From: a virus
Strand: one strand, 5' to 3'
DNA length: 58,183 nucleotides
IMG/VR virus record: IMGVR_UViG_3300032156_000010
Location: 1-58,183 of that record
The translations under genes and the position numbers were made by a program. Shown here piece by piece: positions 5,078-54,940 of this stretch; the first letter of the stretch is position 1, and each line of letters opens with the position of its first letter. The notes below the pieces were generated by a model, which did no database searches, had not been told where the DNA came from, and saw only the letters and a list, made by a program, of their open reading frames with translations.

Positions 5078-5476
5078 ATGGCGCTTGAAACCGTGAATAT
5101 CAGCAAGGAGCTTCTCGGCCTGATCGGAGCCGGGGTGGCGATGGCGATTTTGGGCCAGGTTTTTATGTTCGTCAAAGTGATCCTAAGATGGGCCGGCGAT
5201 ATGAAAAAGAAAAACGAGCAAAAACGGATCGATGACGAACGGCAGGTTGCCGGCAATCCCGGGCCGCTGGTATCCGCCGCCCCCCTACTGACTAACGGGC
5301 AGTTGAAGTTTGCCATCAGCGAGGGTTTGAAGCCAATGCAAGAAAGCGTGAACGCTTTAAACGTGACGGTCCAAGTGTTGACGTCACAATTTGGGGGATT
5401 CAAAGAGGCCTGCTCTGAGAGGCGCAAGGAAATATGGGGCGCGATCGACGTGAAGCAAAGAAGGGGGAAGGAATGA
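5078..5476 (+). CDS. Holin-like single-span membrane protein
   Basis: A 132-residue protein with one hydrophobic span (about residues 12-35, GLIGAGVAMAILGQVFMFVKV) and a charged cytoplasmic part containing a short helix. Placed after the endolysin and the coiled-coil membrane protein, so a holin or lysis-accessory role is reasonable. Its stop overlaps the queD start (ATGA). Confidence 0.5.
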   Translation: MALETVNISKELLGLIGAGVAMAILGQVFMFVKVILRWAGDMKKKNEQKRIDDERQVAGNPGPLVSAAPLLTNGQLKFAISEGLKPMQESVNALNVTVQVLTSQFGGFKEACSERRKEIWGAIDVKQRRGKE

Positions 5477-5892
5477 AGGGCAAGGCCAGGACGCCCGATC
5501 TTTATCTATCCATCGTCGAGCATTTCGACGCCGCTCACTTTCTGCCTCGTTACCGGGGCCCCTGTCGCCGAATGCACGGGCACACCTGGCAGGTAAAGGT
5601 GACGGTGACGCCGGAGCCGGATTTGATAATCAAGGACGGGATGCTCATCGATTTCAAGGATTTAAAAAAGATCGTCCGCACTGCCCTTCCCGATCACCGT
5701 CTCATCAACACCTTCCGGCCTTTTTTCAAGGCCAACCCGCCGACGGCCGAGAACGTGGCGCTCTATCTGGCCGAAACGCTGAGGCGAAAATTACACGTCA
5801 AAAAACTCCTCCTGTCGGAGATCGAGGTATGGGAGTCGGAGAAAGCGAGCGCGAAGCTCGTTTGCCCGATCCTGTTCTATGAAAACTCTTAA
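5473..5892 (+). CDS. queD: QueD, 6-carboxy-5,6,7,8-tetrahydropterin synthase
   Basis: A 139-residue T-fold enzyme that turns dihydroneopterin triphosphate into 6-carboxytetrahydropterin, the second step of 7-deazaguanine synthesis. Signatures: FDAAHF with the first zinc His, MHGHTW with the paired His, PTAENVALYL, and the late catalytic Glu-containing IEVWES. It overlaps the holin-like stop by four bases and the queE start by 14 bases, so the pair is co-translated. Phages use this pathway to make 7-deazaguanines for DNA or to boost host queuosine. Confidence 0.92.
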   Translation: MKGKARTPDLYLSIVEHFDAAHFLPRYRGPCRRMHGHTWQVKVTVTPEPDLIIKDGMLIDFKDLKKIVRTALPDHRLINTFRPFFKANPPTAENVALYLAETLRRKLHVKKLLLSEIEVWESEKASAKLVCPILFYENS

Positions 5893-6490
5893 CATTAACG
5901 AGTGCTTTTACAGCTTGCAGGGGGAGGGCGCCCGGGCGGGGATGCCGGCTGTTTTTCTCCGCCTGGCCGGGTGTAATCTGCGCTGTGAATTCTGCGACAC
6001 CAAATACGCTTACGACCAAGGCCAGGAATTGACAACCGAAAAGGCTGTCTGTTTGATTCATTCCAAAGCTCAAGCCGTTAATCCGCCCGTATGCAGAAAC
6101 GTCATCATAACCGGCGGCGAACCGGCGATACAAATGGATGGGCTGATGGACCTGGTGAGAAGATTGCGCGGGTGGAAACCGGCCTGGAACATAGGCATTG
6201 AGACAAATGGCACTATCGACATAAGCGGTCTCGGTCTGGACTGGATCACCGTCAGCCCTAAGCCGCCCGCCCCGCTCATCCAACGCACGGGCCATGAGTT
6301 AAAAGTCCTCTTTTTCCCGGAGCTCGAACGAAGAATCGGGATCGAAATTATTCGAAGTACGACCGAGTTTCTTTATCATTTCATCCAACCCGTCAGCATG
6401 AAGAACGTCGAGGCGGTGGTGCTGTATATAAAAAAGCATCCGCATTGGAGGCTGAGTCTACAGTGGCAGAAACTAATCGGTATCAAATAA
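5879..6490 (+). CDS. queE: QueE, 7-carboxy-7-deazaguanine synthase (radical SAM)
   Basis: A 203-residue radical SAM enzyme that rearranges 6-carboxytetrahydropterin into 7-carboxy-7-deazaguanine (CDG). The cluster-binding cysteines lie in CNLRCEFCDTKYA (about residues 32-44), with QGEGARAG before and TGGEP after, and the C-terminal WRLSLQWQKLIGIK typical of QueE. No QueC is found in the genome, so conversion to preQ0 would need the host enzyme. Downstream pathway genes are damaged (see the remnants at 6463 and about 6580). Confidence 0.93.
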   Translation: MKTLNINECFYSLQGEGARAGMPAVFLRLAGCNLRCEFCDTKYAYDQGQELTTEKAVCLIHSKAQAVNPPVCRNVIITGGEPAIQMDGLMDLVRRLRGWKPAWNIGIETNGTIDISGLGLDWITVSPKPPAPLIQRTGHELKVLFFPELERRIGIEIIRSTTEFLYHFIQPVSMKNVEAVVLYIKKHPHWRLSLQWQKLIGIK

Positions 6491-6612
6491 CCTGGGAGGA
6501 AATCTATGAGCGCCTCGAGCGCCTGCCCCCGGGCCGCCCGTGGGGAGTGCCGAGGGGCGGAGCGGTGCTGGCCGTCGCTGCCTTATTTGAAGCACATCGA
6601 ATATGCCTATAA
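6463..6612 (+). pseudogene. Truncated phosphoribosyltransferase N-terminus
   Basis: From a GTG at 6463, inside the queE end, an open frame of 49 codons encodes WEEIYERLERLPPGR followed by WGVPRGGAVLAVAALFEA. The PRGG block is the N-terminal signature of the phosphoribosyltransferases often found in phage 7-deazaguanine clusters. The frame stops at 6610-6612, long before the PRPP-binding loop, and the sequence runs into the DpdA-like C-terminus in another frame. I infer a deletion that joined the two genes. Confidence 0.6.
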
Positions 6613-6967
6613 AAACAAGATCCGCGTCCACGGCTTCGCCATGAATTCCCAAATGGTCCACGAGACGCTGCCCTTTTTCTCGATCGACAGTTCAAGCTGG
6701 ATGGCAGTCACGCGGTTTGGCAAGGCGAGCACGTTCAATGAAAAAACGGGCCGAGTTGAATACGTCGCCGTCACCCGCAAGATGCTTGCCCAGCCATATC
6801 TAAAATCCCGCATGGCCGCCAAGCTTTTTCCGCGCCGCCTGCGGTACGATCAGCCCGGAATCCGAGAGTCCGGCGCTTGGGCTCTTTTTAAGGCGGAGGC
6901 GGCCTAGAACGCGTTGGCGCGGCATCTGACGGCGATGTGGGCGGCCAAAGGAGTGACATGGGAATAA
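6506..6967 (+). pseudogene. dpdA: DpdA-like C-terminal remnant (7-deazaguanine transglycosylase)
   Basis: From about residue 26 of the frame opened by ATG 6506 the protein reads YLKHIEYAYKNKIRVHGFAM and then LPFFSIDSSSWM, the late part of the TGT-like DpdA family that swaps guanine in DNA for a 7-deazaguanine. The first ~25 residues are only an out-of-frame reading of the neighbouring phosphoribosyltransferase. The catalytic barrel is missing. A TAG at 6905-6907 then interrupts a frame that continues with HLTAMWAAKGVTWE to 6967, which looks like the family's natural C-terminus. TAG is an ordinary stop elsewhere in this genome. So the gene is deleted at the 5' side and broken near the 3' end. 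Confidence 0.65.
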
Positions 6968-7953
6968 GACACGTTATTCTTCCGATTGAGAGGATCGCCT
7001 CCCGCTACAGCCTCCAGTGGTGGCGATGGCTGGCGAGGAGCGCCTACCACCTTGAAGCCAAGGTCGAGTTCGTCGGCAGTTACGTCTCGCAGAAGATCAA
7101 GGAGGGAGAATTCCTTGACGTCTACGGCACCAACCTCTATAAGGCCCATCAACTTGCCCGCCTCCTTCGCCTGCTCCGTTCCGATCACACTTCCGATTTC
7201 AACATATTGATTTGCGACGGCTGGTATCCGGGCCTCGAGAGCCTGGCCTATGTACGGGACGCGGGCCGCAGGAGGGTCAGGCTGACTGCAATACTCCATG
7301 CCGGTACTTATGACCCGTGGGACTTTCTGACCCAACGAGGCCTAACCTCGTGGGCAGAGCATATCGAGAGAGGGTGGTTCCACCTGTTGGACAGGGTTTT
7401 CGTTGCCACCAGGTTCCATCAAAACTTGCTTATTTCGGCCCGCCAGGTTGACCCGGCCAAGATCAGCGTCGTCCGCTTTCCCGTCCACTACAATCCCCGC
7501 CACCACGGGAACCCTCACCGTGAACCGATCGTCGTATTTCCGCACCGCCTGGCCCCCGAGAAAGATCCCGAAGCGTTCACCCGCCTTCACGAATGCTATA
7601 TAACCCGCTACGGAGCGACGCCCGACGGACTCCACTTCGTCACGACGGCGGCCGGAGGCGGCTGCCGGAATAAGAGCCAATACTATGCGCTCCTCTCCCG
7701 CTGCCGCGTGGCCGTCTCTACGGCGCTGCAGGAGACGTTCGGAATAGCGATGCAGGAGGCCGTCAACGCCGGCTGTATGCCGGTCGCTCCGAATCGACTT
7801 TCCTATCCCGAAACACTTCGCGGTCATCGCCTTTACGAGAGCGAGGACGAGGCGGTGGATTTGATTCGGGAGGGGCTTTTGGATTATAAATGTCCTCGAG
7901 TGCTGTATCCCGGGGACATGGACGATATTCTCAGGAGGTTTTTATGTCAATAA
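6958..7953 (+). CDS. Glycosyltransferase resembling tRNA-queuosine mannosyltransferase
   Basis: A 331-residue GT-B glycosyltransferase. The C-terminal half has VVFPHRLAPEKDPEAF, a VSTALQETFGIAMQEA nucleotide-sugar motif (about residue 255-270) and AGCMPVAPNRLSYPE, a pattern I associate with the GTDC1/QTMAN type that mannosylates queuosine. Start 6958 has an AGGAG site six bases upstream. Next to queD and queE it could glycosylate a 7-deazaguanine base in DNA or tRNA; this is inference. The stop overlaps the next gene start. Confidence 0.72.
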   Translation: MGIRHVILPIERIASRYSLQWWRWLARSAYHLEAKVEFVGSYVSQKIKEGEFLDVYGTNLYKAHQLARLLRLLRSDHTSDFNILICDGWYPGLESLAYVRDAGRRRVRLTAILHAGTYDPWDFLTQRGLTSWAEHIERGWFHLLDRVFVATRFHQNLLISARQVDPAKISVVRFPVHYNPRHHGNPHREPIVVFPHRLAPEKDPEAFTRLHECYITRYGATPDGLHFVTTAAGGGCRNKSQYYALLSRCRVAVSTALQETFGIAMQEAVNAGCMPVAPNRLSYPETLRGHRLYESEDEAVDLIREGLLDYKCPRVLYPGDMDDILRRFLCQ

Positions 7954-8291
7954 CCCGCTGGGTCAAAGCCTACTGCACTTTCGCCGGGATCCATTTTTGG
8001 CCGGGCGCCCCGAAGGGCCATTTCCTCGGCCACCCCCACCGGCATCTATTTCACGTCCGGGCCTTTGCCGTTGTCGGCGGCCCAGACCGCGAGATCGAGT
8101 TTATCGCGCTCAAGGAAAAAATTGAACGCTATTGCATCCGTTATTTCCGCGGCCCCCACACGCTAAGTTGCGAGATGATGGCCGAGCAGTTATTGCGGCA
8201 CTTCCGCCTGGCCCAATGCCAGGTGGACGAGGACGGGGAGAACGGGGCGGTCGTGATGGAGGAGGGATGGTGGAAGGAAAAAAAAGAATGA
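7944..8291 (+). CDS. QueD-like T-fold protein
   Basis: A 115-residue protein with FWPGAPKGHFLGHPHRHLF and later PHTLSCEMMAEQLL. The HPHRH cluster and a trailing S-C-E-M-x-A-E helix resemble a shortened, divergent QueD / pterin-synthase fold found in phage 7-deazaguanine clusters. It overlaps the glycosyltransferase stop by 10 bases and has an AGGAGG site, so it belongs to the same unit. The exact reaction is unknown. Confidence 0.55.
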   Translation: MSITRWVKAYCTFAGIHFWPGAPKGHFLGHPHRHLFHVRAFAVVGGPDREIEFIALKEKIERYCIRYFRGPHTLSCEMMAEQLLRHFRLAQCQVDEDGENGAVVMEEGWWKEKKE

Positions 8292-8345
8292 AACCGACAA
8301 ATTTTAAAGGTTCGAACACGGTACCGAGATAGGGGAGAAAATAAT

Positions 8346-9050
8346 ATGAGCGAGGAAAAGCTGCCCGCCGCCATCAAGCCCTACGACATCAAGGCCATGC
8401 GGGAGATTGAGACGAACCGCCTGGTAAAGGCCGAATGGAACTATAAGGACGATGACGAATTTAAATCGGCCCGCCTCCAAGAGAACCTGAAACGGAACGG
8501 GCAGATTGTCAACCTCATCGTCCGCCGCCTCACAACCGGTTACTACGAGGTGTTGGACGGCAATCACCGGCTGGACGCCATCCTCAAACTCGCCTGGCCC
8601 TCCGTGATCTGCTACGATCTGGGCGAGATCTCCGACGCCAAGGCTAAGCGCATCGCCGTGGAGATCAACGAGACGCGCTTCACGACCAATTATCCGAAAT
8701 TGGCGCAGACCATTAAGGACCTCAAAGAAGAGTTTTCCGACGACGATCTCCTCGCCACGCTCCCGTTCACCGAGCGCGAGTTCCAGGCACTTGAGGATAT
8801 GACCGTGGAGTTCGACTGGGAAAAGGCGGGGGCGGAGGCAGGCGCCAAGCAGAAGACCCTCGAGGACGAGATGGGCGGGGACAGGATCAAAATGGAATTC
8901 ATGCTGACAATCGACCAGGCGGGCGTCGTCAACGAGGCCGTTGCCCGCATCGTACTCGGCCTTAAACTCGAGGGATCGTACAGGAACAGCCGGGCTTTGG
9001 AGCTCATCGCCGCCGATTCCATGAATACCCCGCTGGAGAGTTTGACGTAG
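8346..9050 (+). CDS. ParB-like N-terminal domain protein
   Basis: A 234-residue protein with a ParB/Srx-type fold in the first 110 residues: LVKAEWNYKDDDEF, LQENLKRNGQIVNLIVR, and YYEVLDGNHRLDAIL, the GNHR motif being the nucleotide-binding site of the family. The rest is a helical domain. Phage proteins of this kind directly before the terminase may act in DNA modification, nuclease activity or regulation. A second ParB-family protein is encoded at 53240. Confidence 0.8.
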   Translation: MSEEKLPAAIKPYDIKAMREIETNRLVKAEWNYKDDDEFKSARLQENLKRNGQIVNLIVRRLTTGYYEVLDGNHRLDAILKLAWPSVICYDLGEISDAKAKRIAVEINETRFTTNYPKLAQTIKDLKEEFSDDDLLATLPFTEREFQALEDMTVEFDWEKAGAEAGAKQKTLEDEMGGDRIKMEFMLTIDQAGVVNEAVARIVLGLKLEGSYRNSRALELIAADSMNTPLESLT

Positions 9051-9057
9051 GACCGAG

Positions 9058-9702
9058 ATGGGAAAATATAAGCAAGACTCTAAGTTGCTCGACATTATCG
9101 AAAGCCTGAAGAATAAACGAATTTCGGGCGCCGACCTCACGACCCGCTTGAAGCGGAAAATCGTGCAGTTCTTTATGACCGAGCACTCGGAACTCACTAA
9201 CCGTTTTGTCGCCTCGCTCCTCGCCTGTTCGGAATCCCTGGTTTGTAAAATCAAACATCAACTCGTGCGCGATATGTCGTGGGAAATGGATCGGATGGAC
9301 ATAAAGGAAATCGCCACGGCGCACAAGATCAAAAAGACGGAACTCCAACAGCGGGCCATGCGAGCCGGAGATTACGCCCTGGCCTGGAAAATTGAGATGG
9401 ACTATCTCGACAGCCTCCGACGCCTCGGGTTTATCTTTGAGGCGCCCAAGAGACTGTTGATATCCGACGATCCGCTCGCCCTCCGGAGCGAACTCGAGAG
9501 GTTCTTTGATGAATTCGACGTTAGAAACCCGGCGGAATTCGCCCGCCTCCTCCACGCAGCCGCCGCCACGAACGGCGGCGCCAGGAGACTTATCGGCCTC
9601 CCCGCCGCCATTCCAGCTGTTGTTGTTGGAAGCGCCGACGGTGGAGCTGATGGTGAGACAAGCGGGCTTAAAGATCCTATTCCGCCGGGGGATAAAGACT
9701 GA
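9058..9702 (+). CDS. Terminase small subunit (putative)
   Basis: A 214-residue protein with a helix-turn-helix-like segment (LTNRFVASLLACSESLVCKIK, about residues 44-63) and a long helical middle, ending in a low-complexity Gly/Ala tail that overlaps the large subunit start by 53 bases. Position immediately before the terminase large subunit and DNA-binding outline support the call; sequence alone is not decisive. Confidence 0.6.
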   Translation: MGKYKQDSKLLDIIESLKNKRISGADLTTRLKRKIVQFFMTEHSELTNRFVASLLACSESLVCKIKHQLVRDMSWEMDRMDIKEIATAHKIKKTELQQRAMRAGDYALAWKIEMDYLDSLRRLGFIFEAPKRLLISDDPLALRSELERFFDEFDVRNPAEFARLLHAAAATNGGARRLIGLPAAIPAVVVGSADGGADGETSGLKDPIPPGDKD

Positions 9703-11194
9703 GGCCGACGTCCGCGATGCCGTCGATTGGCTCAAGGAGCCGAAGGTCGGTACTCACGTCAATTGCCGCGAGACGGAGCCCTCTCATTGTTCTCCATTCC
9801 GCTTCCTCTCCGATATCACCTTGGCTGCGGGCAAGGAATGGATTGCTTGGGCCAACCGCGCCGGCTCCAAGTCGTACCTGGCCGCGTTGTCGGTGTGGCT
9901 GAGATCAAGTACGGTGCCCCGCCTCGAGACGACAATTCTCGGAGGATCGCTCGAACAGTCGCAGAAGGCGTACAAGGCGATCGATTCCTTTTGGGCCGTC
10001 TCCGGCATGGGCGAGGAACTGCTCGAGAAACCGCCGTTGCGGAGATCGACCGTCTGGAAATCGGGCAGCCAGGTGGCCGTCCTCACGGCCTCCTCGCGCT
10101 CCGTCCGCGGCCCTCATCCGCAGGTATTGATCATGGACGAGATCGACGAGATGCCCCAGGAAATCTATGACGCCGCCCTCTCCCAACCCACCTCCAAGTA
10201 CGGAGCCGCATCAATGCTCGGCCGCCTCTCGACAAATCATCATCTGGGAGGAGTCATGGACCAGGCGCTCGATCGAGCCCGGGCAGCCGGGATGCCGCTT
10301 TACAAATGGTGCGTCTGGGAGTGTCTGGCGCCGTGTCTGGACTATCGCTGTTCGACCTGCGAGTTGGCGCCCTACTGCCCGGGGGAACACATGAAGAAGG
10401 CCGACGGTTACTACGCCGTCGAAGATCTCCTCGCCAAACTGCGGACGATGAGCTATCTGACGCTCGAAGTGGAATGGTTCTGCCGTAAAGTCGGCTCCTC
10501 GGATTTGGTGTATGGTCACCAATTCGGTCTCGATAAACATTCCGGCCCCTGGCTCCCCTCCTTCTCTGATGGCCTCCCGGCACACCTTTCAATCGACTGG
10601 GGGGGCGAGGTGTTCTCGGTCGGCTGCTGGCAGCAATTTGATTTCGGCTGGGTCCGCGTCGATGAGGTCTATATGCGGAATACCACCAACACCCGACTCA
10701 TGGAGGAGTGTAAGACGCGGCCCTGGTGGGCGAATGTCGAGGATGCCGTGGCCGACCCGTCACGCGACGACCTGATCAGGGAATGGAGGGCGGAGCACGT
10801 CCGGTTCCTCGCTGCCGATAACCGCATCGACGTAGGGGTGGGAAAAACGCGGGACGCGCTGGCGCCCGTCATCGGGCCACCCCGTTTTTATGTCAACCGC
10901 CGTTGCCGCGATTGGCTCCGTGAGGTACAATCCTACAAGGAGAAAAACGGGAAGCCGGTGAAGAAGAATGATCACACTCAAGATGAAACTCGATATTTCA
11001 TTATGGCTCATATTGCTGGCCGGGGCCGGGGCCGGATCATCCTGCCTACGGCGCTGAGGAAGCGCGAGGAGGAATCACCGAAACCGTCCGCGCCCATGCC
11101 GGTCGTTGCCGGCGCCGAGAAAAAAGAGATTGGAGGAAACGATGGAAAAGAAAGCGCCGTCCCGAGAAGCCGAGGGCGGATCTTCGTTCCCTGA
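9650..11194 (+). CDS. terL: Terminase large subunit
   Basis: A 514-residue packaging motor. A Walker A-like segment NRAGSKSYLAA lies near residues 66-76 and Walker B VLIMDEIDEM near 158-167. The nuclease half includes LSIDWGGEVFSVG (first catalytic Asp, about residue 313) and later FLAADNRID. I place the start at ATG 9650 after GTGGAG; the frame is open further upstream, but that part only mirrors the overlapping small-subunit gene. It binds the portal and cuts and pumps DNA using ATP. Confidence 0.88.
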   Translation: MVRQAGLKILFRRGIKTEADVRDAVDWLKEPKVGTHVNCRETEPSHCSPFRFLSDITLAAGKEWIAWANRAGSKSYLAALSVWLRSSTVPRLETTILGGSLEQSQKAYKAIDSFWAVSGMGEELLEKPPLRRSTVWKSGSQVAVLTASSRSVRGPHPQVLIMDEIDEMPQEIYDAALSQPTSKYGAASMLGRLSTNHHLGGVMDQALDRARAAGMPLYKWCVWECLAPCLDYRCSTCELAPYCPGEHMKKADGYYAVEDLLAKLRTMSYLTLEVEWFCRKVGSSDLVYGHQFGLDKHSGPWLPSFSDGLPAHLSIDWGGEVFSVGCWQQFDFGWVRVDEVYMRNTTNTRLMEECKTRPWWANVEDAVADPSRDDLIREWRAEHVRFLAADNRIDVGVGKTRDALAPVIGPPRFYVNRRCRDWLREVQSYKEKNGKPVKKNDHTQDETRYFIMAHIAGRGRGRIILPTALRKREEESPKPSAPMPVVAGAEKKEIGGNDGKESAVPRSRGRIFVP

Positions 11195-52968: not shown

Positions 52969-53210
52969 ACAGGATGACAACTAGAACCCGGCTGATGGAA
53001 ACGGTCGCCTTGCTGGCGCTTACGGCGACATTCACCAAAAAATACAGCTTCGGGCAGCTAGGAATGGGCTTACAGCGGGATTACGATCCTCGAGGCCAAT
53101 TGAGCCCTGGCCCGGGAAATCCGCGAGTTGTGCGGGCGCCTGGTCCGACGGAATCGCGGCCGCTCGTGAAACCGATTCTAAAAATCCCCGGGCGGAGAAA
53201 AAATAGATGA
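52965..53210 (+). CDS. Small basic hypothetical protein
   Basis: An 81-residue protein, Pro/Arg-rich in the second half and with a short hydrophobic start (METVALLALTATFTKKYSFG) too weak for a secretion signal. ATG 52965 overlaps the previous stop; 52974 is an alternative start. Likely disordered. Confidence 0.5.
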   Translation: MNRMTTRTRLMETVALLALTATFTKKYSFGQLGMGLQRDYDPRGQLSPGPGNPRVVRAPGPTESRPLVKPILKIPGRRKNR

Positions 53211-53239
53211 GATCAAAAATCAAAAGGAGGAAAAATCAA

Positions 53240-54940
53240 ATGGGCAAAGAAAGTTCTGTCGAAGTCGGAGCGGGAATCCTTTCGGACATCCCGCTGGATC
53301 AGATCGCAACGAATCCCTTGAATCCCCGGTTGAATATCACCGGGGGCGAGGCATTCGCAGACCTGGTGAAGTCTGTAAAGATCAAGGGCGTGATCGTCCC
53401 AATCATTGTGAGGCTGTTAAAGAGCGTGACGTATCCCTATCAGCTCGTGGTCGGGGAACGGCGTTTCCATGCGGCTCGGGCAGCCGGGCGTGCCACCGTC
53501 CCTGCTTTCATCCGAGAGTTGACGGATGGCGAAGCCTATGAAATCATGCTCATCGAAAACCTGCAACGGCAGGATCTCACGGAGCGCGAGGAGGCCAATA
53601 CCTTCAAAGCCTTCGAGGGGGCCCACGGTAGCATCCAGACCCTCTCTGAAAAGACGGGTGTCAGCCCGCGCTATATCCGGGCTCGGATCGCGGTACTGGC
53701 GCTGCCGGACTTCCTCCTGGTGGCCTGGGAGAAGGGCGTGCTCAAATACGACCATCTGGAACAATTCCTAAAGCTACAAGGCCAGACGGAGCGGATGAAA
53801 CTCCTATTCCGCCGGGTCAAGGATCAAAGTCTTTCTGCCGTCCAGATGAAAAAAGATATTGGAGAGGAGCGGATCCCCCTGAGTATGGCCCTCTTCGATG
53901 TCAAAAAATCGTGTGCCGAATGTCGTTCAAACTCCGCCGTGCAGAAAGACCTGTTCGGGCTCGGAGATTCAAAGAAAATCGCCTGCTTCGATCCAAAATG
54001 TTTTAAGGCCCAACAGGGGCGGTGGCTCACCGCCCACTGGTCTGAAACAGCGGAAGGGAAAAAGTACGGGACGAAAGGCGTCCGGTTTGACGATGAGATT
54101 CGTTGGAATGAAAAAGAGGCCTTCAAGAGCAGTGGACCCGTTCCCAAAAAATGCCTCGAGTGTATGCAATTCGCTTCTCTCGTCTGGTTGAACGGCAAGA
54201 TCAGGCATGAATATGGTGACGCCCGCGTCTGCATTGGAAACAAACCGTGTTTCAAGGCCGTTCAAAAAGAGATGATAGCTTCGACCCGAGGGAAGAAAAA
54301 GGGAGTAATCGCCGGCGCCATCGGCAGTGGACCGCGGGTCGCCTGGCATGGCGAGTATTTCCGCAACGCGTTTTATAAAAAAAGAGTGCCGGAAGTGCTG
54401 GCCGGGATGAAGGCCGAAGACCCGAAGCTCAAGACCCTGCTCGTCGCCTGCCTAATCCACACCAACGGCTATGCGCTCGATGCCGCGGCGAAGGCGCTCC
54501 AAACAAAAAATTACACATCAAAGGCCGACCTGATGAAAAAATTGTTTGCCCAGCCCTACGAGAAGGCCGTGGCCCCGCTTTTCGCGAAGATCGTGGAGGC
54601 CATGTTTGACGAGGGTCAGAACGTGGGGGAGCGGAACGGTCTCGGGTCCAGCTGCCGGCGCGAGATCGGCAATTTCCTTGGTATCAACCTGGCGAAGGAA
54701 TGGGCCCCCACAGAGGAATACTTCCAGAAAAAAACGACCAAGGAGATATTGGCCTTCGGGAAGAAATCCGGTCTGTTTGCTGAGCCCAAGGTGAAAGAAT
54801 ACCTGGCGAAGACGATGAAGAAGAAGCCGGATTCGTTTGACAGGCTGAAGAAGTCAGAGCTCATCACTCTTCTCCTCAAATCCGGCGTGACCCTTGTTGG
54901 TCGAGTCCCCGACGAAATTATTAAAGCCCAAGAGGTGTGA
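53240..54940 (+). CDS. ParB/RepB/Spo0J-family protein, extended
   Basis: A 566-residue protein. The N-terminal ~210 residues are a full ParB core: IPLDQIATNPLNPRLNITGG, YQLVVGERRFHAARAAGRAT (CTP-binding ERR motif), AYEIMLIENLQRQDLTEREE, and a helix-turn-helix (LSEKTGVSPRYIRARIAV). A cysteine-rich middle (CAECRSN, CFDPKCF, CLECMQF) and a long C-terminal domain follow, like ParB-type phage proteins that also act as partition or nuclease factors. No ParA is found. Start 53240 follows AAGGAGG. Confidence 0.85.
   Translation: MGKESSVEVGAGILSDIPLDQIATNPLNPRLNITGGEAFADLVKSVKIKGVIVPIIVRLLKSVTYPYQLVVGERRFHAARAAGRATVPAFIRELTDGEAYEIMLIENLQRQDLTEREEANTFKAFEGAHGSIQTLSEKTGVSPRYIRARIAVLALPDFLLVAWEKGVLKYDHLEQFLKLQGQTERMKLLFRRVKDQSLSAVQMKKDIGEERIPLSMALFDVKKSCAECRSNSAVQKDLFGLGDSKKIACFDPKCFKAQQGRWLTAHWSETAEGKKYGTKGVRFDDEIRWNEKEAFKSSGPVPKKCLECMQFASLVWLNGKIRHEYGDARVCIGNKPCFKAVQKEMIASTRGKKKGVIAGAIGSGPRVAWHGEYFRNAFYKKRVPEVLAGMKAEDPKLKTLLVACLIHTNGYALDAAAKALQTKNYTSKADLMKKLFAQPYEKAVAPLFAKIVEAMFDEGQNVGERNGLGSSCRREIGNFLGINLAKEWAPTEEYFQKKTTKEILAFGKKSGLFAEPKVKEYLAKTMKKKPDSFDRLKKSELITLLLKSGVTLVGRVPDEIIKAQEV

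Follow-up and report, generated by a model that had tools for sequence, protein, structure and literature searches.

Positions 5434-8291 of the viral DNA analysed here are probably what is left of a cassette for hypermodifying viral DNA. The cassette is of a 7-deazaguanine type without QueC and would have ended in a glycosylated base. The window, that is, the whole stretch of DNA that was analysed, is IMG/VR virus record IMGVR_UViG_3300032156_000010 and has a length of 58,183 nucleotides. On its + strand, QueD, QueE, a GT4 glycosyltransferase (GT) and QDL, which is our label for a short QueD-fold protein, are all intact within 5434-8291, and several of the genes overlap. Beyond this window, the evidence tips modestly towards a QueC-independent pathway that is widespread in viruses. 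In this pathway, the QueD-fold protein would remodel 7-carboxy-7-deazaguanine (CDG) and a GT related to the tRNA-queuosine mannosyltransferase QTMAN (GTDC1) would add a sugar in DNA. The glycosylated 7-deazaguanine would represent a DNA hypermodification of a new class, and the sugar might be C-linked at C7. The original prediction had held that the virus or its recent ancestor glycosylated a 7-deazaguanine base. For the ancestor this is the best reading, given that the GT is part of a dpdA cassette and has a QTMAN-related donor domain. The stretch and its 3' neighbour contain the following features.

5434..5892 (probable start 5473), + strand: QueD (6-carboxytetrahydropterin synthase), intact; Pfam PTPS 1e-31, TIGR03367 QueD 7e-23.
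5879..6490, + strand: QueE (7-carboxy-7-deazaguanine synthase), intact, radical SAM; phrog_2076 (QueE-like) 3e-33, best NCBIfam model TIGR04508 (QueE) 3e-40.
6463..6575 (about), + strand: remnant of a phosphoribosyltransferase (PRT)-FolE fusion, PRT part, FolE domain deleted; FolE-fusion profile 6-35 of 271, alignment to the fusions of loci L005-L009 and L014.
6570..6967, + strand: dpdA pseudogene, last ~40% only; phrog_887 6.5e-11, DpdA profile 182-245 of 313 (1.6e-21), alignment with intact relatives.
6958..7953 (open reading frame 6937-7953), + strand: GT4 (GT-B) glycosyltransferase with a QTMAN-related donor domain; Pfam GT1/GT4, general models only.
7944..8291, + strand: QDL, 115 residues; phrog_17812 (unknown function), structural model, alignment.
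8346..9050, + strand: ParB-like protein, directly 3' of the cassette; phrog_723 1e-21.

The presence of queD and queE had been predicted, and both assignments are borne out by the Pfam and NCBIfam matches. Direct reading of the QueD translation shows the CxxxHGH, PTAEN and terminal Glu motifs, and QueE carries the cluster motif CNLRCEFC. The probable start of the GT is ATG 6958, with AAAGGAG upstream, and that of QDL is 7944, with AGGAGGT upstream. Pfam and NCBIfam gave no name for QDL or DpdA.

The GT, QDL and DpdA are found together in many viruses. A search with the GT as the only query revealed 22 viral contigs at 36-48% identity, plus 20 phage records; the loci gathered are labelled L001, L002 and so on. 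Analysis of the neighbours showed that QueD, QueE, FolE, QDL and DpdA recur around the GT. Two gene orders are conserved, QueD-QueE-(PRT-)FolE-QDL-GT-DpdA-ParB and, in loci of the L002 type, FolE-radical SAM-DpdA-GT-QDL-ParB; L002 and L003 share the order DpdA-GT-QDL-ParB with the window. Among the loci selected by the GT (n=31), a DpdA-type protein was present in 27, QDL in 26 and any 7-deazaguanine gene in 29. The search for the same gene pair with intact dpdA in other phages, which had been suggested as a check, was thus strongly positive. The full set of gathered GT loci, some of which had been picked through DpdA or QDL, gave counts of 105/110 for DpdA and 101/110 for QDL. When loci were selected by QDL, the GT was found in 50/80; QDL without a nearby GT was observed in phiST and in about 30 of the 80. 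Loci selected by DpdA were freed of duplicates and required to have at least two synthesis genes (n=39); 24 of them carried both GT and QDL, one the GT only, none QDL only, and 14 neither (p=1e-9 by Fisher's test, which here and below takes the loci as independent, some of them being related). The gap between GT and DpdA is shorter than 300 bases in 19/29 loci, and the genes often overlap or are adjacent. In most loci the partner is a phrog_887 DpdA, and some have one from phrog_10773, an unlike group. Because the DpdA partners come from unlike families, the pairing is not simply one inherited operon. The cultured phages ACP17 (Acidovorax), PAC2 (PA5oct group, Pseudomonas), Phosso, X1 (Xanthomonas) and BUCT-ZZ01 carry GT and QDL beside 7-deazaguanine genes, and cassette genes occur in cultured phages of Pseudomonas aeruginosa, Acidovorax, Xanthomonas, Sinorhizobium and Synechococcus. 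In a scan of bacterial and archaeal genomes, five GT loci were found, of which three had DpdA, QDL and synthesis genes and one had QDL on a short contig. The ParB-like neighbour family was found at 48/110 GT loci; it probably belongs to the packaging region and not to the pathway. Several cassettes contain additional genes. A radical SAM protein, B12-binding-like, was seen in L001 (6616-8004), L002, L015 and six more loci, and a SPASM radical SAM protein in L004, L011 and others; these may be further tailoring enzymes.

QueC (PF06508) had no match in the window, in any of the 22 GT contigs, or in ACP17, PAC2, Phosso and BUCT-ZZ01, and X1 gave a sub-threshold match only. It was also absent from 50/50 QDL records, six cultured phages among them. 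The same search found a match in 12/14 control genomes. In the loci selected by DpdA, QueC was present in 0/24 with QDL versus 8/15 without QDL (p=1e-4).

The description of the short protein as QueD-like, made in the original prediction, was confirmed by two lines of evidence. Pfam PTPS missed the QDL of the window alone, and it matched 3/16 family members. The AlphaFold model of QDL (pLDDT 93) found E. coli QueD as its best match (Z 12.1, root mean square deviation 2.9 over 105 residues), and an hhalign comparison of QDL with QueD gave 93%. QDL shares with QueD the three zinc histidines, which are invariant in QDL (H17, H32 and H34), and the base-binding Glu (E96). It differs from QueD in that invariant Leu28 replaces the catalytic Cys before HGH, the Asp-His loop is missing in the alignment, and Ser-Cys-Glu (75-77) is newly invariant. 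As the cassette already has a genuine QueD, QDL presumably acts on a different compound of the 7-deazaguanine pathway, and since QDL replaces QueC, CDG would be its likeliest substrate. The QDL family is common in viruses, with at least 587 matches in one collection. QDL is also fused behind other N-terminal regions, in L032 (6452-7333, Chryseobacterium phage MA9V-3) and L033 (6143-7294, Vibrio phage Bakedbeans).

One version of the proposed pathway goes further and makes QDL a putative CDG decarboxylase; DpdA would insert plain 7-deazaguanine, and the GT would link the sugar to the free nucleophilic C7 as a C-glycoside. It is consistent with the mutual exclusion of QueC and QDL and with the active site of QDL, in which the zinc and base-binding positions are retained and the Cys of QueD is not. 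QDL also occurs without a nearby GT, as expected if QDL alone yields a usable base. However, C-glycosylation would be unusual for a retaining GT4 enzyme, and we regard this version as possible but less likely than not. Decarboxylation by QDL would leave C7 free, which makes a C-glycoside plausible in chemical terms; without it, an acyl or N-glycoside would be formed. CDG decarboxylation is the role proposed for DpdL, to which QDL may correspond.

Some observations weigh against a glycosylated base in viral DNA. A GT homologue (37% identical) in Paenibacillus polymyxa ISL-58 (L039, 7001-8023) lies without dpdA, QDL or synthesis genes. L157 is the one locus that joins the GT with QueC, and it has no QDL; a distant GT homologue of PhiXhv-15 (L028) lies beside a real Gat-QueC. 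There is no obvious hydroxyl acceptor on CDG, or on 7-deazaguanine if QDL is a decarboxylase, and the attachment chemistry is therefore ambiguous (ester, N- or C-glycoside). Co-occurrence alone cannot separate DNA from another substrate, and because many viral contigs are fragments, absences are no proof and the co-occurrence counts are lower bounds. The GT might thus act elsewhere, on a surface polymer, a protein or a small molecule, and be a mere neighbour of the 7-deazaguanine genes, which would agree with the broad acceptors among GT4 enzymes and with the Paenibacillus homologue in a non-dpdA metabolic locus. This is unlikely because the co-occurrence of GT and QDL is near-perfect in the DpdA-selected loci and holds with unlike DpdA families, in diverse viruses and in genes that often overlap or adjoin. 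By eye, the setting of L039 looks metabolic, with decarboxylase-like, acyl-CoA dehydrogenase-like, ATP-grasp-like and AraC-type genes.

The GT model (AlphaFold, pLDDT 90.8) has a GT-B fold, and its nearest structures are MshA (Z 24.6), BshA (Z 23) and other retaining GT4 enzymes. No GTDC1/QTMAN entry was among the solved chains listed, which weighs neither way. The EX7E donor motif, E266-x7-E274, is invariant in the GT family. The GT shares with QTMAN the donor sequences HRxxxxKxP, EX7E and GCxPxxPNRLxYPE, and the profile comparison (hhalign) gave 99.2% over the C-terminal half, which includes the latter two. In eight bacterial genomes with QTMAN, the GT profile ranked the QTMAN_N protein first in 8/8; all matches of 33-61 bits were QTMAN_N proteins, reached via the donor domain, and the next GT4 scored at most 14.5. 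The N-terminal acceptor domain of the GT is unmatched, as none of 17 GT members matched QTMAN_N (PF12038) at E<=10. This model had no match in 14 control genomes, and in a phylum search it matched in 52/198 Bacteroidota genomes. Judged by sequence, the donor domain of the GT is related to QTMAN and the acceptor domain is not that of QTMAN. The motif noticed at the outset is thus real in the donor half, while the assignment of the whole enzyme as QTMAN-like did not hold.

It had also been suggested that, with dpdA broken, the target might now be host or phage tRNA; the GT would then act like QTMAN on queuosine in tRNA, or on a different 7-deazaguanine there. The specifically QTMAN-like donor domain (GCxPxxPNRLxYPE) and the broken dpdA of the window are in line with this. 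However, none of the 17 members has QTMAN_N, and the relatives pair the GT with a DNA-type DpdA and lack QueC. Moreover, QueA and QueG, which are needed for the cyclopentenediol used by QTMAN, were reported to be absent from the viruses analysed (PMC6884629). A tRNA target is therefore very improbable. Because of the missing QTMAN_N, the DpdA partner and the lack of QueC in the relatives, the acceptor should be a simpler 7-deazaguanine in DNA. The system would then differ from QTMAN also in its DpdA/DNA setting in place of tRNA, and no queuosine side chain is expected.

The GT homologue of L157 (5346-6774) adjoins a PIG-L-type deacetylase; this is a QueC-type locus and the only gathered locus with a PIG-L motif. 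At L028 of PhiXhv-15 (8144-9858), also a QueC-type locus, a gene annotated as a BshB-like deacetylase lies beside the distant GT homologue. The pairing hints at transfer of N-acetylglucosamine followed by deacetylation, and it is only a hint that N-acetylglucosamine is the general donor. The PIG-L deacetylase motif was not found in the window.

Between QueE and the GT, dpdA is present as a genuine pseudogene. It had been recognised as broken from the outset, and its profile match covers only the part given above. The start of the PRT-FolE fusion, which precedes the dpdA tail, had been missed. Such fusions are present in the relatives L005-L009 and L014, and that of L006 matches FolE (2.6e-64) plus PRT. 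We had considered the fragment at 6463-6609 as a lone phosphoribosyltransferase and rejected this, as the relatives show it to be the start of the fusion; folE has therefore also been lost. In the frame of 6506-6904, the alignment of the dpdA remnant with intact DpdA proteins starts only at LPYLKHIEYAYKNK. The remnant is interrupted by TAG at 6905-6907, 20 codons before its end; past the TAG, the frame reads NALARHLTAMWAAKGVTWE, the C-terminus of the family (LTxLWxxRGIxW), up to the original stop TAA at 6965-6967, which overlaps the GT start. A deletion took the rest of PRT, FolE and ~60% of dpdA, and the ends were joined out of frame. Rescue of dpdA by recoding of TAG was considered and dropped, because other genes of the window (such as ParB and TROVE) end in TAG, so that TAG acts as a stop. 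A six-frame search of the window with three DpdA types found no second copy. Relatives close to the window that have an intact dpdA were not found; GT identity reached 48% at best. PRT genes are also present in the cassettes of PAC2 and BUCT-ZZ01; PRT, fused or not, might recycle the guanine released by DpdA.

The lesion could be an assembly or sequencing error in a virus with a working cassette, since the contig is metagenomic and the other four genes are intact. This is quite improbable, as there are two separate lesions, the out-of-frame deletion and the TAG, and folE was lost with the deletion. With folE and the first 60% of dpdA gone and the remainder interrupted, the virus has most likely lost the ability to install the base; without DpdA, the base would not enter DNA by the known route. 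Since QueD, QueE, GT and QDL remain open genes and hold their family-invariant residues, either decay set in recently or these genes are still of some use. The suggestion that the system is decaying is likely right for the copy of the window, which is probably dead or decaying, and recent decay is favoured.

FolE, QueD and QueE make CDG in an established pathway (PMC6884629, PMC13329287), and they would do so in the intact relatives. QDL, with its remodelled active site, would act on CDG or its product in place of QueC, and DpdA would swap guanine in DNA for the deazaguanine. Drawing on a nucleotide-sugar donor, the GT4 enzyme would then glycosylate the 7-deazaguanine, and the resulting base may shield viral DNA against host nucleases. 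Alternatively, the GT could act before insertion of the base. The DpdA systems of phages 9g, CAjan, Rosebush and nt-1 use the same FolE, QueD, QueE and DpdA with post-replicative base exchange in viral DNA, whereas the present cassette has QDL for QueC, plus a tightly linked GT (Hutinet 2019, PMC6884629). The cassette group is a variant of the DpdA system, and the copy of the window, by its DpdA, does not itself belong to it. Glucosylation of hydroxymethylcytosine in T-even phages by beta/alpha-glucosyltransferase works alike, as a modified base comes first and is then glycosylated in viral DNA. Unlike in T-even phages, where a cytosine analogue is made as a nucleotide, a guanine analogue would enter by transglycosylation, and the genes are unrelated beyond the general GT-B type. 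In a literature search of incomplete coverage, which does not prove novelty, no report of glycosylated 7-deazaguanine in phage DNA was found.

Outside the cassette, a tRNA-Ile gene (anticodon TAT) lies directly 5' of a TROVE/Ro60-type RNA-binding protein with a vWA domain (155-1850), and a second, larger ParB with a helix-turn-helix domain is encoded near the right end of the window (53207-54940).

The known phage 7-deazaguanine bases that were checked carry small substituents. A sugar on a guanine analogue, if true, would be the purine-side counterpart of the glucosylated cytosine of T-even phages. It would also account for two common viral families that lack annotation and would tie the tRNA-modifying QTMAN lineage to viral DNA. 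Because cultured phages carry the cassette, the idea is directly testable now. The window itself is a natural example of a virus that is without the inserting enzyme and has kept the tailoring genes.

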